A DNA stretch of 55,364 bases. Origin: Acholeplasmatales bacterium (lineage in GTDB: Bacteria > Bacillota_I > Bacilli_A > Acholeplasmatales > Anaeroplasmataceae). Position 1 is the stretch's first letter; every line of letters begins with the position of its first letter. This document shows, piece after piece, positions 27,657 to 40,027 of the stretch. The stretch is from contig JAFSWG010000041.1 in NCBI GenBank assembly GCA_017444645.1, positions 1 to 55,364 on the forward strand. Reading direction: 5' to 3'. The notes under the pieces were generated by a model. That model made no database searches. It worked only from the letters and a program-made list of their open reading frames with translations, and was not told the origin of the DNA. A program made the translations under genes and the position numbers.

Positions 27657-29039
27657 TTATTGTTCATTAACAATTTCAATATCGTTATTATTATCTTCCA
27701 TTGGCATTCTAATATTCTTTTTCCAGAAATAAATTAATATTGGAAGTTCAAATAATATCATAAATACCCAACCTGTAAATGTAGAGAATGCTGTGCCTCT
27801 TACATGATACATTGGAATAAAAATAAATGCGGCTGATACTCTAAATATAATTTGGAATGTTGTAGATAAGAATACAACTAATAAATTACCTATTCCTCTA
27901 AAATATGATTGAATTCCATTTGTTGTACCTGGCATTAAATAAATGAATCCCATTACACTTAAATACATAGCTGCATATTTTTGATTATCTGGATTATCTG
28001 TAAATATTTTAACTATATTTTGTCTTAATGTTAAAACAATTATAGAAATAAATATAGCCATACTCCATTGGATAATTAAGCCATGTATGTATCCTCTTTT
28101 AGCTCTTTTACCTTGCTTAGCACCTCTATTTTGGGCTATAAAGACTGCTACTGCTTGTCCTATACATTTAGATGGTTCAAGTGCGTAATCATCTATTTTT
28201 GTACCAAATGTATATCCTGCTTGTTCATTAAAATCTAGAGTATTAACTTGAGTTTGAACTAAAGCTTTTCCTACATATAATACTACTTGCTGTAATGCAG
28301 ACGCGATTGAATATCTCATTGTTCTAATAAATAATTCTTTTTTAACAAAGAAATCTGAGAATCTTAATCTAAAATGATCATTTTTAATAAGAGCATATAT
28401 TATGGCTATAATCATAGTTACACCTTGAGCAATAATTGTAGCTAAGGCAGCACCAAATATTCCCATATTAGCTCCTGCAACAAACCAAAAATCTAATCCT
28501 ACATTAATTAAACAGCTCATTACTAAAATAATTAAAGGACTTAATGAATCACCCATACTTCTAAGTGCTGTAAATATGATTGTATAAATAGTTAAAAATA
28601 AAACTCCAATCATTGATATTACTAAATATGTTTTAGCACCATCAAGTAAATAATCATGAACATTAGTAGCTTTTAAAAGTGGTCCTGCAATAATCATTAT
28701 AAATATTGATACTACTATTGCAAAAATAGAAAAGATTGTCATACATAAGCCAATCTCTTTTTTAACCATTTCTTTATTTTTGGCTCCATAAAATTCACTC
28801 ATTAAAATGGATGCACCATTACATAAGCCAATAATTAAAAAAGATACTAGATTAATAATAGGTGTTGCTGCACCTACACTATCAACACTTAATGTATCTG
28901 TATAATTACCAATTATTGCAGTATCAATTGTTGAATATAATAATTGAAATACATTCGCAATAATTAAAGGAATTGTATATATTAACATGGATTTTACGAT
29001 ATTACCTTTTGTCATATCGTTTTTTCTAACTTTTTCCAT
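27657..29039 (-). CDS. MATE-family efflux transporter
   Basis: 460 residues with 12 hydrophobic helices in two homologous halves. The start (MEKVRKNDMTKGNIVKSMLI pattern) and PLIIANVFQLLYSTIDTAIIG near 25-45 are typical of the DinF/NorM-like MATE branch in Firmicutes. Members export cationic drugs or metabolites with sodium or proton entry. It has its own promoter (29062-29090) just past the lysC terminator. The promoter spacer holds a 7-bp inverted repeat, so a local regulator may act there. Substrate unknown. SD GAGG is weak. Confidence 0.85.
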   Translation of the reverse strand: MEKVRKNDMTKGNIVKSMLIYTIPLIIANVFQLLYSTIDTAIIGNYTDTLSVDSVGAATPIINLVSFLIIGLCNGASILMSEFYGAKNKEMVKKEIGLCMTIFSIFAIVVSIFIMIIAGPLLKATNVHDYLLDGAKTYLVISMIGVLFLTIYTIIFTALRSMGDSLSPLIILVMSCLINVGLDFWFVAGANMGIFGAALATIIAQGVTMIIAIIYALIKNDHFRLRFSDFFVKKELFIRTMRYSIASALQQVVLYVGKALVQTQVNTLDFNEQAGYTFGTKIDDYALEPSKCIGQAVAVFIAQNRGAKQGKRAKRGYIHGLIIQWSMAIFISIIVLTLRQNIVKIFTDNPDNQKYAAMYLSVMGFIYLMPGTTNGIQSYFRGIGNLLVVFLSTTFQIIFRVSAAFIFIPMYHVRGTAFSTFTGWVFMILFELPILIYFWKKNIRMPMEDNNNDIEIVNEQ

Positions 29040-29115: not shown

Positions 29116-30420
29116 TTATCTAACTAATGCTTCATATAAAGCTTTAATTGTTTCTTCATAATCCTTTGAATCAACACCAATGATGATATTTAATTCAGAT
29201 GGTCCTTGAGCAAGAAGCTTTACATTAATCTTTTGTGCACCTAATGTTTCGAATATCTTAGCACACACACCACTTCTCTTTGCCATATTACGACCTACTA
29301 CTGCAACTAGGGCAATATTATCATCAATAGATACGTTAGCACCTAATTCTTTCTTTAAATCAGTTACTAATTCATATCTACATTTTTCAACTGATGCACC
29401 ACCAACTACTACTGAGAATGAGTCAATTCCTGATGGAACATGTTCTACTGATACATCATATTTTTCAAATACTGATAAAGCTTTTCTTAAGAATCCTACT
29501 TCATTAGACATATGATCCTTTTGAATATTGAATGATAAGAAATCCTTCTTACCAGCTATACCTGTAACGATATTTGATGTATCTGTACATTCATTTTGAA
29601 TAAATGTACCTGGATTATCAGGTTCATTAGTATTCTTTAAGTTAATTGGAATATTTAAGCTTTGAACAGGGAATACTGTTTCTTCATGTAATACTGATGC
29701 ACCCATATAAGATAATTCTCTTAATTCTGCATAAGTAATTTCTTTAATAGCTTTTGGATTAGATACTAGCTTAGGGTCAGCAGCTAAAATACCAGATACA
29801 TCTGTCCAGTTTTCATAAACTGATGCATTTACGCATTTTGCTAAAATTGAACCTGTAACGTCAGATCCACCTCTAGATAATAGCTTTACTGTACCATTAG
29901 GGTATGCACCATAGAATCCTGGAACAACAATTGAACCATAAGCATTGAATGCTGCTTTAACATTTGATTCAGTTAATTTTTCATCTAATTTTCCATCAAA
30001 ATTAAATCTTAATAAATCTCTAGCATCAACAAATTTATAATTTAAATATCTAGACATTAATAAAGATGTTAAATATTCGCCGCGGCTTACTAAATAATCT
30101 TGGCTAATATTCTTATTTAATTCTGCTTTTAAAGACTCTAAATCCTTTTCAATATCATATTCAATACCAAGTTCATCTCTTACACCAACGAATCTAGTAT
30201 ATAACATATCCCAAATATCAGCATATGGAACTGAATATTTTAAGTGAGCATGTAAGATATATAATAAATCTGTTATTTTTGTATCATTTTTATCTCTTTT
30301 TCCTAAAGCACTACATACAACGATTTTTCTTTTAGGATCAGATAAAACTATATTTTTAACTTTTGCAAATTGAGTAGCACATGATAAAGAGCTACCACCA
30401 AACTTTGTAACTGTTAACAT
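29116..30420 (-). CDS. lysC: aspartate kinase
   Basis: 434 residues. Seen: the N-terminal kinase motif TKFGGSSL (5-12), SRGGSDVTGS near 194-203, the NWTDVSGI segment near 214, and two C-terminal ACT-like domains (about 290-434) that usually bind lysine or threonine for feedback control. It phosphorylates aspartate, the first step toward lysine, threonine, methionine and diaminopimelate. It lies 9 bases behind asd in one operon with its own promoter, not in the riboswitch operon. It is a monofunctional enzyme without a homoserine dehydrogenase domain. Confidence 0.9.
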   Translation of the reverse strand: MLTVTKFGGSSLSCATQFAKVKNIVLSDPKRKIVVCSALGKRDKNDTKITDLLYILHAHLKYSVPYADIWDMLYTRFVGVRDELGIEYDIEKDLESLKAELNKNISQDYLVSRGEYLTSLLMSRYLNYKFVDARDLLRFNFDGKLDEKLTESNVKAAFNAYGSIVVPGFYGAYPNGTVKLLSRGGSDVTGSILAKCVNASVYENWTDVSGILAADPKLVSNPKAIKEITYAELRELSYMGASVLHEETVFPVQSLNIPINLKNTNEPDNPGTFIQNECTDTSNIVTGIAGKKDFLSFNIQKDHMSNEVGFLRKALSVFEKYDVSVEHVPSGIDSFSVVVGGASVEKCRYELVTDLKKELGANVSIDDNIALVAVVGRNMAKRSGVCAKIFETLGAQKINVKLLAQGPSELNIIIGVDSKDYEETIKALYEALVR

Positions 30421-30429
30421 AAAATCCTC

Positions 30430-31470
30430 CTAGAAATCTAGACCAACTAGTTTTAAAGCGATTTGTACAGCGTTAGTTGCAGCACCCTTTCTAACTTGGT
30501 CTCCACAACACCATAATGTAATACCATTTTCATTAATTAAATCACGTCTAATTCTACCAACAAAAACGATATCTTGATCAGATGTTACAATTGGCATTGG
30601 GTATTCCTTAGCTTCTGGATTATCAAATAAACGACAGCCTTTTTCATTTGCAATTGCATTTTTAACAACATCTAAATCTAATTTATTTTCAGTAACTAAA
30701 GTTACAGAAATTGAATGGCTTCTTACAACTGGTACACGTACACAAGTACAAGTAACCTTTAATTCAGGTAAATGCATAATCTTTCTACCTTCATTTTGCA
30801 TCTTCATTTCTTCTGTTGTATAACCATTATCTAAGAATGAACCAATATGAGGAATTACATTACCAGCAATTTGGTATTGGAATACCTTTGATTCGAAATT
30901 ACCTTTATTAAGAATAACTCCATCCTTCTTATAAGTATCAGTTAACATTCCCATTTGATCCATCAATTCAACTGGACCTGCAGCACCAGCTCCTGATGTT
31001 GCTTGATAAGTTGAAGCATTCATTGCTTTAATCTTTGATAATTTATTAATTGCGTTAACTGCAACTAAAGTAATGATTGTAGAACAGTTAGGGTTTGAAA
31101 TAATACCTTTGTTCTTAAATACATCTTCACCATTGATTTCAGGTACTACTAGTGGTACATTATCATCCATTCTAAATGCGCTTGAATTATCAATGAATAC
31201 TGCACCAGCTTTTACGATATCAGGTGCAAATTCTTTTGCTACTGCATTAGATGCAGCACCTAAAACTATATCTAAACCAGCAAATGCTTCATGGCAAGCC
31301 AATTTGATTTCAACTTCTTTTCCACCAAAAGGAACCTTCTTACCAACAGATCTTTCACTAGCTAATAATCTTAATTCATTTACTGGGAATTTTCTTTCTT
31401 CTAAAACTTTTAACATTTCACGACCTACAGCTCCTGTAGCTCCTAAAATACCGACATTATATTTTTTCAT
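30430..31470 (-). CDS. asd: aspartate-semialdehyde dehydrogenase
   Basis: 346 residues, typical length. Seen: NADP-binding GATGAVGREML near 10-20, SERSVG near 39, the catalytic cysteine in NPNCSTI near 127-133, and the RVPVVRSHS run near 245 with the proton-relay histidine. It reduces aspartyl phosphate to aspartate semialdehyde, the branch point for lysine and diaminopimelate, methionine and threonine. First gene of asd-lysC. Its promoter (31529-31557) has a palindrome in the spacer and upstream direct repeats. SD AAAGGAG. Confidence 0.94.
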   Translation of the reverse strand: MKKYNVGILGATGAVGREMLKVLEERKFPVNELRLLASERSVGKKVPFGGKEVEIKLACHEAFAGLDIVLGAASNAVAKEFAPDIVKAGAVFIDNSSAFRMDDNVPLVVPEINGEDVFKNKGIISNPNCSTIITLVAVNAINKLSKIKAMNASTYQATSGAGAAGPVELMDQMGMLTDTYKKDGVILNKGNFESKVFQYQIAGNVIPHIGSFLDNGYTTEEMKMQNEGRKIMHLPELKVTCTCVRVPVVRSHSISVTLVTENKLDLDVVKNAIANEKGCRLFDNPEAKEYPMPIVTSDQDIVFVGRIRRDLINENGITLWCCGDQVRKGAATNAVQIALKLVGLDF

Positions 31471-31679: not shown

Positions 31680-32393
31680 TTACTTATTTCCGAATAAAAC
31701 ATCTTCCATATCATAGAATCCAGTTGGCTTATTAGTTAACCATCTAGCAGCTACAATTGCACCATTTGCAAAAATCTTTTTAGAATGAGCTGAATGTTTT
31801 AATGTTAAGATTTCATCTTCTCCACAATACATTACTTCATGCTCACCTACAATTGTACCGCCCCTAATTGCTGATACACCAACTTCTTTTTTATCTCTAG
31901 GACAAATTCCAGATCTTCCTTCATTTACAGCATAGCCTGTTTCTTCTACTATTGTATTTACTAGCATCTTAGCTGTTCCTGATGGAGCATCTTTTTTCTT
32001 ATTATGATGTGCTTCTACTACTTCAATATCAAATTGATCTTTTAAAATAGGTGTTACTTCTTTAACTAATCTATTTAATAAGATTACACCTAAAGAGAAA
32101 TTAGCACTTCTAAGTACAGGTGCTTTCTTTGATAGGTCATCAATTTTCTTTAATTGTTCATCTGTATAACCTGTTGTTGCAAAAACAACTGGTTTTTTTG
32201 TTTTAGATACATAATCACAAATCATATCTAAATTTGCAGGATTAGAAAAATCAATGATTACATCAAAATTCTCTTTAACATCATCTAATTTTTTATTTTC
32301 ACATTCAATAGCGACAACTGAAGCTAATTCATCACCTAACATAGATGATAAAATTTTGCCCATTGCGCCATATCCAACAACAACTGCCTTCAT
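31680..32393 (-). CDS. dapB: 4-hydroxy-tetrahydrodipicolinate reductase
   Basis: 237 residues, at the short end of the family. Seen: N-terminal nucleotide-binding VGYGAMGK near 7-14, the substrate-site signature EAHHNKKKDAPSGTA near 126-140 (family E.HH..K.DAPSGTA) and the tetrahydrodipicolinate reductase C-terminal fold. It reduces the product of DapA with NAD(P)H on the way to lysine and diaminopimelate. It overlaps the dapA stop by one base (TAATG). It is the last gene of the riboswitch-controlled operon and ends in a hairpin with a TTCG loop. Confidence 0.92.
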   Translation of the reverse strand: MKAVVVGYGAMGKILSSMLGDELASVVAIECENKKLDDVKENFDVIIDFSNPANLDMICDYVSKTKKPVVFATTGYTDEQLKKIDDLSKKAPVLRSANFSLGVILLNRLVKEVTPILKDQFDIEVVEAHHNKKKDAPSGTAKMLVNTIVEETGYAVNEGRSGICPRDKKEVGVSAIRGGTIVGEHEVMYCGEDEILTLKHSAHSKKIFANGAIVAARWLTNKPTGFYDMEDVLFGNK

Positions 32394-33274
32394 TATTTAA
32401 TAAGCTCCTTTACATTATCCATTTCAGCTTTTAAAATCTTAGCATTAGCTTCACTCATTGTATCAAGTGGTGCTCTATATCCACCAACATTAAATCCGAA
32501 ATAATTCATTGCTTCCTTAATAGGAATTGGATTTACCTCTAAGAATAAATCATTAGTAAATGTTAATAGCTTGTCAGCTAAATCCATTGCTTCTTTATAC
32601 TTATTTTGGAAACATAAATCACAAATCTTTGCAGTATTTTGTGGTGCGATATTAGCTAATACTGAAATTACACCTGATGCACCTACGGACATCATAGGTA
32701 CAATAATATCATCATTTCCTGATAACATAATGAAATTATCGTTTAATAATTTAGAAATCTTCATAGCATAGCTCATATTTCCAGAAGCTTCCTTAATACC
32801 ATAAATATTTGGATGCTTTGATAATACTTCTACAGCATGATAAGACATATTCATACCAGTTCTTCCTGGTACATTATACATAATTACTGGGCAAAGTGAT
32901 GCATCAGCAACTGCAGTGAAATGCTTAATTAAACCACTTTCATTTGTCTTATTATAATAAGGCGTAATAACTAATACATAATCAGCACCCATTTCAGAAT
33001 ACTTACGAGACATAGTTACTGCTTTTTCTGTTTCATTTGAACCTGAACCAACGATTAAAGGTACTCTCTTATTAACTACCTTAACACTATATTTAACAAT
33101 TTCAGCTTCTTCATCAAATGATAATGTTGAAGCTTCACCTGTTGTACCTAAAATTACTATACCACCTGATTTATTTGCAATATGGTATTCTAATAATTCA
33201 CCTAATTTCTTTAAATTTACTGTACCATCTGGATTAAATGGTGTAACTAATGCAACTATACTTCCTTTTAACAT
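32393..33274 (-). CDS. dapA: 4-hydroxy-tetrahydrodipicolinate synthase
   Basis: 293 residues from the ATG at 33274, preceded by SD GAGGAGG; a longer frame from 33307 overlaps dapF and is rejected. Class I aldolase (TIM barrel). Seen: LVTPFNPDG near 8, GTTGEASTL near 43, the catalytic tyrosine in YNVPGRTG near 132-139 and the Schiff-base lysine in GIKEASGN near 158-165. It condenses pyruvate with aspartate semialdehyde. The dapF stop lies one base before its ATG, and dapB overlaps its stop by one base, giving tight coupling. Confidence 0.94.
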   Translation of the reverse strand: MLKGSIVALVTPFNPDGTVNLKKLGELLEYHIANKSGGIVILGTTGEASTLSFDEEAEIVKYSVKVVNKRVPLIVGSGSNETEKAVTMSRKYSEMGADYVLVITPYYNKTNESGLIKHFTAVADASLCPVIMYNVPGRTGMNMSYHAVEVLSKHPNIYGIKEASGNMSYAMKISKLLNDNFIMLSGNDDIIVPMMSVGASGVISVLANIAPQNTAKICDLCFQNKYKEAMDLADKLLTFTNDLFLEVNPIPIKEAMNYFGFNVGGYRAPLDTMSEANAKILKAEMDNVKELIK

Positions 33275-33275
33275 A

Positions 33276-34091
33276 TTAATATTCCTCCTCGCTATAATTA
33301 CATTCAAATATTTTATCTGCTTTAATTTCTACAAATACATTACCTTTTTTATCGATTTCAGGATTTAATTCTCCTTCGTCTAAATGGCAGGTAACCTTAC
33401 CTCTTGTGTACGCCAACTTAGATGCAGCTACCATAGCTGCACCACAAGCTGATCCTGTATTGTTTACAAAGCCAAGTCCTGGCTTATAACATTTTATTCT
33501 TAAATTCTTTTTATCAATTACTTTCACAAAGATTACATCTGTTTTTCTACTAAATAATTTATATTCAGCAACTACAGGTGCAAGCTTTAACATATTTTCA
33601 TCATTTATATCATCTACAAAAATAATAGTATTAACACCTAATAAATTAAATGAATAAATAGTTAATAATGTATTATCTAATCTAATGACTCTTCCAAACG
33701 AATCCATAGAATCAGTAACATATATCATTCTATTATTAAAATTAGGCTTCTCTAGATTTAATCTAGCAACAAATGGAATTTCAGCGGCGACTTCAATTTT
33801 TGTTCTTCCTGCTCCAGTTAATATTGTCATTTCCTTTGATCTTGATATTTCGTTATCAAAAACAAATTTAGAAAAGCATACTAAAGCGTTAGGATTGAAA
33901 ACTTCTCTTTTTCCTTCTGTATCATATACAATCATTTCAAGAGGCTTTTCTTTAACAACAATTAATCTATTCGCTCCAATTCCTTTTATTCTGTTTAATA
34001 CCTTTATTGCGATATTAGAATAATCTTGATTATCTTCAAATAATGTAATCAAGAAATCCTCACCACAAACATACATCTTTGTAAATTTCAT
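33276..34091 (-). CDS. DapF-like protein lacking key catalytic residues
   Basis: 271 residues aligning over the full length with diaminopimelate epimerase: start MKFTKMYVCGEDF against family MxFTKMHGLGNDF, FSKFVFD after the first active-site region, SACGAAMVAA at the second. The first catalytic cysteine, in family CGNG, is Asn66 (NPNALVC). Binding residues also differ: GND to GED (N to E at 11), substrate NxDGS region to DTEGK, NPH to VNT near 153, ERG to KPG at 203-205, with a four-residue insertion before the second cysteine (C216), which is kept. Position between lysA and dapA implies a DapF ancestor. It is probably not a working two-base epimerase. TAATG coupling to lysA. Confidence 0.75.
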   Translation of the reverse strand: MKFTKMYVCGEDFLITLFEDNQDYSNIAIKVLNRIKGIGANRLIVVKEKPLEMIVYDTEGKREVFNPNALVCFSKFVFDNEISRSKEMTILTGAGRTKIEVAAEIPFVARLNLEKPNFNNRMIYVTDSMDSFGRVIRLDNTLLTIYSFNLLGVNTIIFVDDINDENMLKLAPVVAEYKLFSRKTDVIFVKVIDKKNLRIKCYKPGLGFVNNTGSACGAAMVAASKLAYTRGKVTCHLDEGELNPEIDKKGNVFVEIKADKIFECNYSEEEY

Positions 34092-35326
34092 TATTCTTCT
34101 CTTTCAATTAATTCATCTAAAGTCATTCTTCTAACTACAAGCTTTGATTTACCATCTTCAACAAATACAACTGCAGGTGTTAATGCCTTATTATAATTAG
34201 ATGACATTGAATATCCATAAGCACCTGTTGTATAAGTTATTAATAAATCTCCTGGATTTGCTTCAGGTAATTTATAATCTTCGATAATTAAATCTCCACT
34301 TTCACAGCACTTACCTGCGATAGTTACTGTATGATCTTTCTTATCATTTTCTTTATCAATGATATCACAATCATATTTTGCTTGATATAAGGCAGGTCTA
34401 ATATTATCAGTCATACCTCCATCAATGAAATAATATTCTTTATTTGGAGTTTTCTTTGTAAATCCAATTGTATATAAAGTATATCCTGCTTCACCTACAA
34501 TTGAACGACCTGGTTCAATACATAATTTCTTAATTTTAACATTTGATTTTGCAAGTGCGTTTTCACATGTTTCAATTAAATTTTTAGATACAACATCAAA
34601 TGGAATTGGTTGATCCTCATCTGTATAATGAACACCAAAACCTCCACCAATATTTAATACTAATGGCTTATCAAAATCTTTACAATATGTAATTAATTTC
34701 TCTAGTGCTGCATCAAATGCTTTTAAATCAAAGATTTGAGATCCAATATGAGAATGGAATCCTAAGAAATTAATATATTCTGATTTATTAATTACTTCTA
34801 ACATTGTATTATAATCATCTGATTTATATGCTACACCAAATTTAGAATCTACATGTGCAGTAACAATAAATTTATGTGTATGTGCTGAAACACCTACATT
34901 TAATCTAATGATAATATTAACATTTTTCTTTAATTCTTTAGTTATCATATCTAAAGCAACTAATTCCATTAAATTATCAACAACAATTGTTCCAACGTTA
35001 TTCATAATAATAAATCTTAATTCATCAGGAGATTTATTATTACCATGGAAATAAACCTTCTTAGGGTCATAGCCAACATTTAATGCTGTATAGAATTCAC
35101 CAACTGATACACAGTCAAGTGATAATCCTTCTTGGTCAACTATTCTAACCATTTCTTTTACATTAAATGCTTTAGATGCAAATAATACTTCTGTTTCAAA
35201 TTGATTTGATTTGAAATTATTAATATATAATCTCATATTATTTTTTAGCATTGCTGCATCATAGATATATAGCGGTGTACCATATTCTTTTTTTAATTCA
35301 CGTACATCTACACCTGATATTTTCAT
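34091..35326 (-). CDS. lysA: diaminopimelate decarboxylase
   Basis: 411 residues from the ATG at 35326; the ATG at 35335 touches the SD and is rejected. Fold III pyridoxal-phosphate enzyme. Seen: TPLYIYDAAML near 17, the cofactor lysine in LFASKAFN near 46-53, HSHIGSQI near 192, NIGGGFGVHY near 228, EPGRSIVGEAG near 278 and CCESGD near 344 at the active site. It decarboxylates meso-diaminopimelate to lysine. First gene of lysA-dapF-like-dapA-dapB, controlled by a lysine riboswitch in its leader. SD AAGGAG. Confidence 0.94.
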   Translation of the reverse strand: MKISGVDVRELKKEYGTPLYIYDAAMLKNNMRLYINNFKSNQFETEVLFASKAFNVKEMVRIVDQEGLSLDCVSVGEFYTALNVGYDPKKVYFHGNNKSPDELRFIIMNNVGTIVVDNLMELVALDMITKELKKNVNIIIRLNVGVSAHTHKFIVTAHVDSKFGVAYKSDDYNTMLEVINKSEYINFLGFHSHIGSQIFDLKAFDAALEKLITYCKDFDKPLVLNIGGGFGVHYTDEDQPIPFDVVSKNLIETCENALAKSNVKIKKLCIEPGRSIVGEAGYTLYTIGFTKKTPNKEYYFIDGGMTDNIRPALYQAKYDCDIIDKENDKKDHTVTIAGKCCESGDLIIEDYKLPEANPGDLLITYTTGAYGYSMSSNYNKALTPAVVFVEDGKSKLVVRRMTLDELIEREE

Positions 35327-35352
35327 AATAATCATCTCCTTATATAATTATT

Positions 35353-35375: not shown

Positions 35376-35394
35376 ATGTTTGAAATTTATCATA

Positions 35395-35562
35395 ATATAA
35401 TTAGCGCCACTACAACTGTAGGAGTGATATAAGTATTTCCTATATCCCCACATAATCTATATGCCTATAGAATATGTTCGGCAATGGTTACCTTTCTTAT
35501 GGTTCATAGAATGCCTTCTTCCCATAATACTTATTTGCATTGCTACCTCTAATATAAATTTT
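35395..35562 (-). ncRNA. lysine riboswitch (L box)
   Basis: On the minus strand the leader starts with the L-box word AGAGGTAGC (35550-35542). P2 forms from GCAATG with CATTGC and carries the loop-E signature AAGTA opposite GAAAGG around TTATGG/CCATAA; the conserved core GCCGAAC follows. Three more hairpins come in order: P3 (CATA...TATG), P4 (GATATA/TATATC) and P5 (CTACA/TGTAG), then a P1 strand CTAAT. The five-helix order and the conserved words identify the lysine aptamer. Lysine binding should favour the terminator at 35353-35375 and shut off the operon. Confidence 0.88.
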
Positions 35563-37969: not shown

Positions 37970-40027
37970 TTATTTTTCTAAAACTTCTTTAAATTGGTCT
38001 CCAATTGAAGTAGATGCTTCTTCATTTTGTAAATACTTTTCAAATTCAGCTCTTTCTTCTTTGTTAACTAATTTTTTAATAGAAAGTTTTAATTTCCACT
38101 CTTTCTTGTTTACGTCAATAACAATAGCCTTAGCTTCATCACCTACTGCATAGAAATCAGAAAGTGTCTTCTTTCCTTCAACCATTGTTTCGCTTTGAGG
38201 AATAAATCCATCAACGCCAAATGCTTCAACAATTAATCCTGAAGATTTAATTTCTTTAACCTTAATATCAGTTACATCACCAACTTTAGCCTCAACCTTA
38301 TCCCAAGGATTATCCATTAAAGCTTTTCTTGATAATCTAATATTTTCTTTTTCATCATTCATTTGAATGATTGCAACTTCAACTTCATCACCAATAACAA
38401 CTTGGTTATTGTAATTATCGTTTGGATTCCAAGAATATTCGCTTTGATGTAATAAGCCCTTTAAATTAGGAGCTATTTCAAGTAATAAATATCCTGGTTG
38501 CTTATTAGTTACTCTACCAACAATCTTATCTGATACCTTATGGTTTTCTTTGAATTCTTGGTATGCAGTTTTAACTAATGCTTTTCTTGATAATTGAAGC
38601 TTACCATTTTCTTTGGATAATACTTTTACTGTTACATTATCACCAGCTTTTAATACTGTAGTGATATCTACAAATTCATGAGCAACCTCACGTGCTTTAA
38701 TAATACCAGTAACATTACCAATCTTTACAAAAGCAGCATATTTTTCAACCTTAGTGATTGTACCTTCTAATACATCACCTTCATTAATTGAATCTAATTC
38801 CTTATCTCTTGTTTCAAGATATTTTTCATGTTCAATAACTTTTGCAGAAACAACTGCTCTTCTTCTCTTTTCTTCGATTTCAATTACCTTTACAGCAACA
38901 TCTTCTTTAGCCTTAGTATCCTTTAAAGCTTGGCTCTTAGGCATAAATAATTCAATTCCATTATAAACACAAAGGAAACCACTATTTACTTCTTTTAAAA
39001 CATGAACTGTAATTTCTTCATTATTTTCTTTTGCAGCAACAACCTTATCAAAAGCTTCTCCCTTTAATTGATCAAGTCTTGATAACATAATTAAGCTATG
39101 GTCATTTCTACCTTGTCCATTTTCAATTTTTGTAACTTTACAAGTTAACTTATCACCAATTTTTACTAATCCTTTAAATGAAGTTACATTTTGATCCTTA
39201 GTAAAATAATTTAAGTGAAGTGTACCTTCTGTAAAGCTATGAATATCTAATAATAATGTTTTGTCATCAGGAATAGATACTACTACACCTTCTACTACAT
39301 CACCAACTCTAACATTTGGTTTAGCACTATAATCATTTAATAATTCTTCAAAACTTGGTTCCTTTGACATTTTATTATACCTCTCATTAATCAAACTTAT
39401 AATCTTATTTACAACCTCATCAATTGTCATTTCAGTTGTATCAACCATGATTGCATCATCTACTTTTTTAAGTGGTGATATTTCACGGTGTGAATCTTTA
39501 TAATCCCTAACTTTTATTTCATTCAATATAGTTTCGTAATCTGATTCAATTCCCTTTAATGCATTTTCCTTACAACGTCTTTTAGCTCTTTCAGAAGCTT
39601 TAGCAGTTAAATAAATTTTCAAATCAGCATTTGGTAATACGACAGAGCCAATATCTCTACCATCCATTATTACCTTTCCCTCTTTAGCTGATTCTCTTTG
39701 GAATTCAACCATTTTTTCTCTTACTAATTTTACTTTCGCTACAGCTGAAGCATTATTAGTAACATCTTCTTTTCTAATTTCAGTAGAAACATCTTCTCCA
39801 TTCAAATAAGTCTTACCATCTTTGTAAACTACTTGAATGTCTTTTACGAAGCTATATTCATCTTCGTTTTCTAAATTAATTTTTCTTTTTAATGCTTCAA
39901 GCGTTACCGCACGATACATTGCTCCTGTATCAATATGCGTGAAGCCTTCTTTTTCCGCTATAATAGCTGAAATTGATGATTTTCCGCTACCTGCTGGCCC
40001 ATCAATAGCCACAATAAATTTTTCCAT
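37970..40027 (-). CDS. fusion of cytidylate kinase and ribosomal protein S1
   Basis: 685 residues. Residues 1-219 are a complete CMP kinase: P-loop DGPAGSGKSS (9-18), DTGAMYRAV near 33-41, MDGRDIGSVV near 121-130 and the RVRDxxD-like lid VRDYKDSHRE. Residues 220-685 contain about five S1 RNA-binding repeats, the last ones ending in LSRKAL, as in Firmicute S1 proteins. The join is in frame at NERYNKMSKEPS. An SD-like GAGAGG lies 9 bases before the ATG at 39370, so a free S1 protein could also be made. In many Firmicutes cmk and rpsA are adjacent separate genes. Followed by der. Confidence 0.88.
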   Translation of the reverse strand: MEKFIVAIDGPAGSGKSSISAIIAEKEGFTHIDTGAMYRAVTLEALKRKINLENEDEYSFVKDIQVVYKDGKTYLNGEDVSTEIRKEDVTNNASAVAKVKLVREKMVEFQRESAKEGKVIMDGRDIGSVVLPNADLKIYLTAKASERAKRRCKENALKGIESDYETILNEIKVRDYKDSHREISPLKKVDDAIMVDTTEMTIDEVVNKIISLINERYNKMSKEPSFEELLNDYSAKPNVRVGDVVEGVVVSIPDDKTLLLDIHSFTEGTLHLNYFTKDQNVTSFKGLVKIGDKLTCKVTKIENGQGRNDHSLIMLSRLDQLKGEAFDKVVAAKENNEEITVHVLKEVNSGFLCVYNGIELFMPKSQALKDTKAKEDVAVKVIEIEEKRRRAVVSAKVIEHEKYLETRDKELDSINEGDVLEGTITKVEKYAAFVKIGNVTGIIKAREVAHEFVDITTVLKAGDNVTVKVLSKENGKLQLSRKALVKTAYQEFKENHKVSDKIVGRVTNKQPGYLLLEIAPNLKGLLHQSEYSWNPNDNYNNQVVIGDEVEVAIIQMNDEKENIRLSRKALMDNPWDKVEAKVGDVTDIKVKEIKSSGLIVEAFGVDGFIPQSETMVEGKKTLSDFYAVGDEAKAIVIDVNKKEWKLKLSIKKLVNKEERAEFEKYLQNEEASTSIGDQFKEVLEK
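39370..39385 (-). promoter_or_regulatory. possible internal ribosome site for stand-alone S1
   Basis: On the minus strand GAGAGG, nine bases, ATG, in frame at residue 220 of the Cmk-S1 fusion, exactly at the domain join. Confidence 0.45.

Follow-up and report, generated by a model that had tools for sequence, protein, structure and literature searches.

The window, a stretch of 55,364 nucleotides from an Acholeplasmatales bacterium (genome G000), carries within a riboswitch-controlled lysine operon a Cys-less DapF-like protein, here labelled X (33276-34091, minus strand), which we rate as a pseudoenzyme of a well-known family rather than as a new system. On balance, X is best read as the DapF native to this operon, inherited vertically and now a pseudoenzyme kept for non-catalytic partner binding. 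A pseudoenzyme with a regulatory or scaffolding role had been one of two explanations originally offered; its first half is supported by the replacement of both catalytic cysteines and the presence of other routes to meso-DAP, whereas the regulatory or scaffolding role is one that we infer.

The operon lies on the minus strand in the order lysine riboswitch, lysA, X, dapA, dapB, asd, lysC. The riboswitch aptamer is full length (RF00168, model positions 1-182; 35394-35559, 82.9 bits, E=3.2e-20), and the first gene past it is lysA, encoding diaminopimelate decarboxylase (34091-35335; TIGR01048, 447 bits). X follows as an intact open reading frame of 271 aa, assigned by its ORF, profile and fold matches, and is succeeded by dapA (32393-33274; TIGR00674, 313.2 bits), dapB (31680-32393; TIGR00036, 196.5 bits), the aspartate-semialdehyde dehydrogenase gene asd (30430-31470; NF011456, 437.8 bits) and the aspartate kinase gene lysC (29116-30420; NF006540, 497.6 bits). 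The lysA stop codon and the start of X overlap in the sequence TAATG, and the likely ATG start of dapA (33274) lies one base downstream of the X stop; the dapA ribosome-binding site, AGGAGG (33284-33289, minus strand), falls in the final codons of X, inside a predicted hairpin (fold z-score -2.78). The intact frame, the close packing between lysA and dapA and the riboswitch control were thus all as originally described. An assembly error or a frameshifted pseudogene was rejected because two sister MAGs also have the gene intact, at 75-78% identity. Past lysC, a MATE-family transporter gene (27657-29039, minus strand) begins after 76 bases and may be a further member of the operon. Elsewhere in the window, positions 37970-40027 (minus strand) hold one 685-aa ORF that joins a cytidylate kinase (TIGR00017, 235 bits, residues 3-211) to ribosomal S1-type domains.

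The expected likeness of X to DapF from end to end is seen in profiles, structures and models. The DapF profile TIGR00652 aligns with X over positions 1-268 of 270 at 105.4 bits, slightly short of its curated threshold of 114.65; the X proteins of the two sisters likewise stay under it (95.0 and 91.4 bits); PF01678 recognizes X at 59 bits, above its cut-off of 34.7, which places X along its whole length in the DapF superfamily. X also matches the PDB DapF 2otn (E=3.9e-21), and its AF2 model, whose confidence is modest overall (mean pLDDT 74.2) and drops to low values in residues 119-133 and 211-217, superposes on E. coli DapF 6d13 over 261 residues (Z 28.2, 2.5 A). X therefore resembles the DAP epimerase DapF (TIGR00652 / PF01678) in length, fold and place in the operon, and the Cys/Cys DapF that walled relatives carry at this locus is its direct orthologue; X differs in that both catalytic cysteines and most substrate contacts are replaced and that its TIGR00652 score falls short. 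The fold matches of the model also include PhzF. PhzF and the trans-3-hydroxy-L-proline dehydratases are members of the wider fold without the Cys/Cys pair; X belongs to the same superfamily, with about 9-11% identity in structural alignment, and no catalytic residues common to X and these enzymes were found. The histidine racemases CntK and HisR share with X the DapF-like fold and the cofactor-independent family but keep the catalytic cysteine pair that X lacks, and Cys-to-Ser mutants of HisR turn over substrate at a greatly reduced rate (PMC11602996).

In X, the first catalytic Cys of the [MF]CGN motif (Cys73 of H. influenzae and E. coli DapF) is replaced by Asn66 (codon AAT, 33894-33896, minus strand), on which all alignments, including that of the orthologues, agree with the earlier reading. 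The second, in the CG[ST]G motif (Cys217), is replaced by Thr212 (codon ACA, 33456-33458, minus strand). This position was placed by aligning X with 30 operonic orthologues, which required no gap; the HMMER alignment of X with B. anthracis DapF is also ungapped through the second active-site motif, as are the bridging orthologues (GWTLACGTGCCASVVAASKLG in G007, GFVNNTGSACGAAMVAASKLA in X of the window and GFINTNGSGCGAALVAASKLG in G003). A four-residue insertion that would keep Cys216 (codon TGT, 33444-33446, minus strand) as the second active-site Cys, as first proposed, is ruled out by these alignments: Cys216 lies four residues downstream of the second catalytic position, is non-catalytic, and occupies a column in which active orthologues have Cys or Ala. 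Because Thr212 stands at the Cys217 position and Cys216 is off-site, both catalytic cysteines of X are absent. The alternative once offered, a new catalyst with a single cysteine, is unsupported, given the displaced Cys216 and the pair of residues at the catalytic positions, which varies even between sister species (N/T, N/T and N/N) and takes the forms D/S, S/S, N/S and D/N across the clade.

The substrate pocket has changed as well. GED in place of GND, VNT in place of the substrate-binding NPH and KPG in place of ERG were correctly noted at the outset. Among the 13 residues that we take to be the pocket contacts of DapF structures, X retains N75, G218 and a Ser at S/T219 and has altered the rest; N11, N64, N157, N190, E208 and R209 have become E, D, G, D, K and P, active copies of the family likewise departing from Asn at N157, where they have Thr. 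In the Cys/Cys groups, all 13 contacts are conserved (13/13; P 0.005 and 0.0001 against random positions). In the clade of the window, 10/13 are conserved versus 66% of positions elsewhere, which is no excess (P=0.32).

Other routes to meso-DAP had been predicted for the cell, either a DAP dehydrogenase or a second dapF, and the window's genome assembly (1.59 Mb, 69 contigs, 73.6% complete) holds both. An intact ddh lies on contig C27 (419.4 bits against a cut-off of 180.6), and a canonical Cys/Cys dapF is followed by dapL, the LL-DAP aminotransferase gene, on contig C5 (282.1 and 486.4 bits). A second, partial DAP dehydrogenase match (G000:C6:60709-61110, minus strand, 169.5 bits, positions 190-323) is perhaps a remnant or a contig-edge copy. 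Without correction for kinship, ddh is present in 13/16 genomes with a Cys-deficient copy, and two of the remaining three have a canonical dapF; in the other, G023 (84% complete), neither gene was found. Conversely, five Cys/Cys genomes gave no ddh match (G028, G032, G041, G052 and G053), and all five keep both cysteines, again uncorrected for kinship. Canonical dapF and X occur together in seven genomes (G000, G003, G004, G008, G010, G016 and G026).

The comparison set comprised 55 genomes of one family, f1, which is likely the Anaeroplasmataceae of a survey of this part of the Bacilli that found repeated loss of peptidoglycan, with mur genes kept in 40-60% of Anaeroplasmataceae genomes (PMC10868615). 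Wherever present in f1, the orthologues of X sit between lysA and dapA, and both the lysA-X-dapA-dapB order kept in Cys/Cys relatives and gene trees identify them as orthologues of the operonic DapF. All 17 genomes with a Cys/Cys DapF at the locus have murE (17/17, kinship uncorrected); in one, G028, murE scores slightly below the cut-off and mraY is present. Neither murE nor mraY was found in the whole 18-genome clade of the window, including genomes 98-100% complete, and, judging from these missing genes, the window bacterium, of the gut-type Bacilli, seems to have no cell wall. Both cysteines are gone in 13/13 X-bearing genomes without murE and mraY (G000, G003, G004, G006, G008, G010, G012, G016, G019, G020, G023, G025 and G026; kinship uncorrected). 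A strict rule that wall loss causes cysteine loss is nonetheless unsupported, because three deviating genomes have both murE and mraY: G017 (S/S) and G021 (N/S) have lost both cysteines and G031 (S/C) the first. The possession of another meso-DAP route, Ddh, fits the cysteine losses better than wall loss does. X itself is missing, with lysA directly before dapA, from seven genomes of the family, five wall-less members of genus g1 (G011, G013, G014, G018 and G024) and both g2 genomes, and because these lost X and left lysA and dapA together, its role is dispensable in some species. Outside f1, none of eight further operonic DapF copies, from another family of the order, was Cys-less. In a walled relative of genus g6, the lysine operon includes dapH (TIGR03532).

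The thiols were probably lost first, in Ser/Ser forms with a largely intact pocket; we draw this order from present-day pockets, as only the two cysteines differ among the 13 contacts of G010 and little else beyond them in G019. Codons at the first position fit a path from Cys (TGT) through Ser (AGT) and Asn (AAT) to Asp (GAT). Built from an alignment stripped of the pocket columns, the gene tree allows a single double loss inside the genus, and the tree of the operon's other genes prefers more than one. Because the AU test rejects neither alternative (p=0.086 and 0.106), only two losses are named as separate: that of G031, which is, and that of G012, which probably is.

The Cys-less gene is not decaying; purifying selection acts on it from end to end. 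Comparisons among the window species and its two sisters, each of them Cys-less, give dN/dS values of 0.166 (95% 0.104-0.250), 0.188 and 0.191, and a second Cys-less pair gives 0.166; these NG86 estimates are rough at pS ~0.5. Neutral simulations at equal pS gave a mean dN/dS of 0.90 and a minimum of 0.57, and each run rejected about 51 stop mutations and ended at only 19% identity. In addition, pN is below pS in each sixth of X, and complete Cys-less copies are 267-271 aa long. With its catalytic residues lost, its gene intact and dN/dS well below 1 (0.166-0.191), X is, by its sequence, a probable pseudoenzyme. Constraint is relaxed, as the Cys-less values are about 2-4 times those of active Cys/Cys copies in genus g6 (0.047-0.089); a Cys/Cys pair of g1 (G022/G005) gives 0.177, similar to the Cys-less values. 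The focus of conservation differs too. In Cys/Cys copies, the two catalytic motifs belong to the best-conserved segments, but in the clade of the window they are only average and the peak spans residues 101-160; residues 101-120 belong to the best-conserved segments both in this clade and in the D/S pair (the last two bins lie outside both counts). Since selection preserves X in related species, it probably has a job that needs no epimerase chemistry.

Such a job need not be binding. A neofunctionalized enzyme, using a changed pocket (E11, R42, D57, N66, the Asp of TDVI, K203-P204 and T212) for thiol-free chemistry, would account for the GED, GANR, YD, VNT, TDVI and YKP motifs common to the three sister species, and members of the wider fold without the Cys pair, such as PhzF, set a precedent. 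However, the Cys-less orthologues share no acid/base pair, the second catalytic position is T, T and N even among the sisters, and the pocket is no more conserved than the remainder of the protein, so that we think this reading unlikely. Partner binding is the likelier of the two: variable residues fill the catalytic positions in a fold that has been preserved, and conservation no longer centres on the pocket. That X is still a DAP epimerase, using Cys216 after a local loop shift as the alignment of the original prediction implied, is highly improbable: the helix of the AF2 model does begin at residue 217, though at a pLDDT below 50, but ungapped alignment on either side fixes Thr212 at Cys217 and leaves Cys216 as the fourth residue beyond, Asn66 leaves no first base, and the contacts N11, N64, N190, E208 and R209 are all replaced.

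Two further readings give X no chemistry of its own. X could be a slowly decaying leftover that serves mainly as a coupling cistron, its protein useless; ribosomes crossing X would open the dapA start, and stops and frameshifts in X would be selected against for that reason. The overlapping or abutting lysA, X and dapA, the dapA ribosome site within the last codons of X in a predicted hairpin, the relaxed constraint relative to active g6 copies and the loss of X from several relatives are all in keeping with this. Yet it predicts a dN/dS near 1 and shortening, whereas 0.17-0.19, 267-271 aa and whole-gene constraint are seen, and genomes without X simply put lysA beside dapA. Retention solely for translational coupling is accordingly disfavoured by dN/dS and the X-less operons, and we doubt this reading about as much as that of a new enzyme. 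Considerably less probable again is a regulatory subunit, or prozyme, pairing with the canonical DapF whose gene adjoins dapL. Homodimers are common for DapF, which would suit such pairing, and seven genomes hold both genes. The distribution of the genes nevertheless speaks against X as an obligatory partner of the second DapF, with Cys-less X lacking a second dapF in the well-covered G019 (98% complete) and G017 (94%) and a second dapF lacking X in G011, G014 and G033.

For the preferred reading of X as a pseudoenzyme kept for partner binding, we propose the following course. Given the Ddh present and the peptidoglycan apparently absent in the clade of the window, epimerization by the X copy would have become dispensable. 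The cysteines would have gone first, in Ser/Ser forms that otherwise kept most of the pocket, which would have altered later. Selection may then have kept the folded DapF scaffold, which would bind a partner, most likely another protein, and X would be co-expressed with the lysine enzymes whenever the riboswitch registers low lysine. As a model for X we use E. coli DapF, which can bind RppH directly without its cysteines: DapF(C73A/C217A) has no epimerase activity, yet tightly binds and activates this RNA pyrophosphohydrolase (PMC4227774). A DapF scaffold without catalytic cysteines thus still functions through direct binding in that system (PMC4227774), as proposed for X; unlike X, wild-type E. 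coli DapF is also an active enzyme, and an RppH-type role for X is an analogy from a distant bacterium. More tentatively, the operonic DapF of these bacteria may have a second, non-catalytic function separable from the epimerase; wall loss and Ddh might have freed it from catalysis, and about 15 species would retain a pure DapF scaffold linking lysine status to another process. The literature searched contains no report of a DapF pseudoenzyme that still sits at its original locus and has active and intermediate relatives, although this is no proof of absence. At this locus nature supplies a graded series, from active DapF by way of Ser/Ser forms to fully rebuilt pockets, in relatives both walled and apparently wall-less; comparing them lets one ask what DapF does beyond epimerization outside E. 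coli.

The series also carries a warning for annotation, as Ser/Ser relatives of DapF would pass as DAP epimerase in these genomes. Two such copies (L013 1495-2310 and L018 1498-2310) score 211.6 and 191.6 bits against TIGR00652; because this is far above the cut-off of 114.65, the copies would be named DAP epimerase and pathway reconstructions would credit the wrong gene. Among the 55 genomes of f1, those with a canonical dapF beside dapL all lack murE (11/11). A dapL for which no Cys/Cys DapF was found occurs at L131 (G019, 98% complete), L132 (G024, 95%), L133 (G009) and L134 (G020). Two arrangements place dapL next to the region of the CTP synthase gene (L140 and L141 versus L132-L136), either pyrG-dapF-dapL or dapL with a 200-aa ORF and no dapF.
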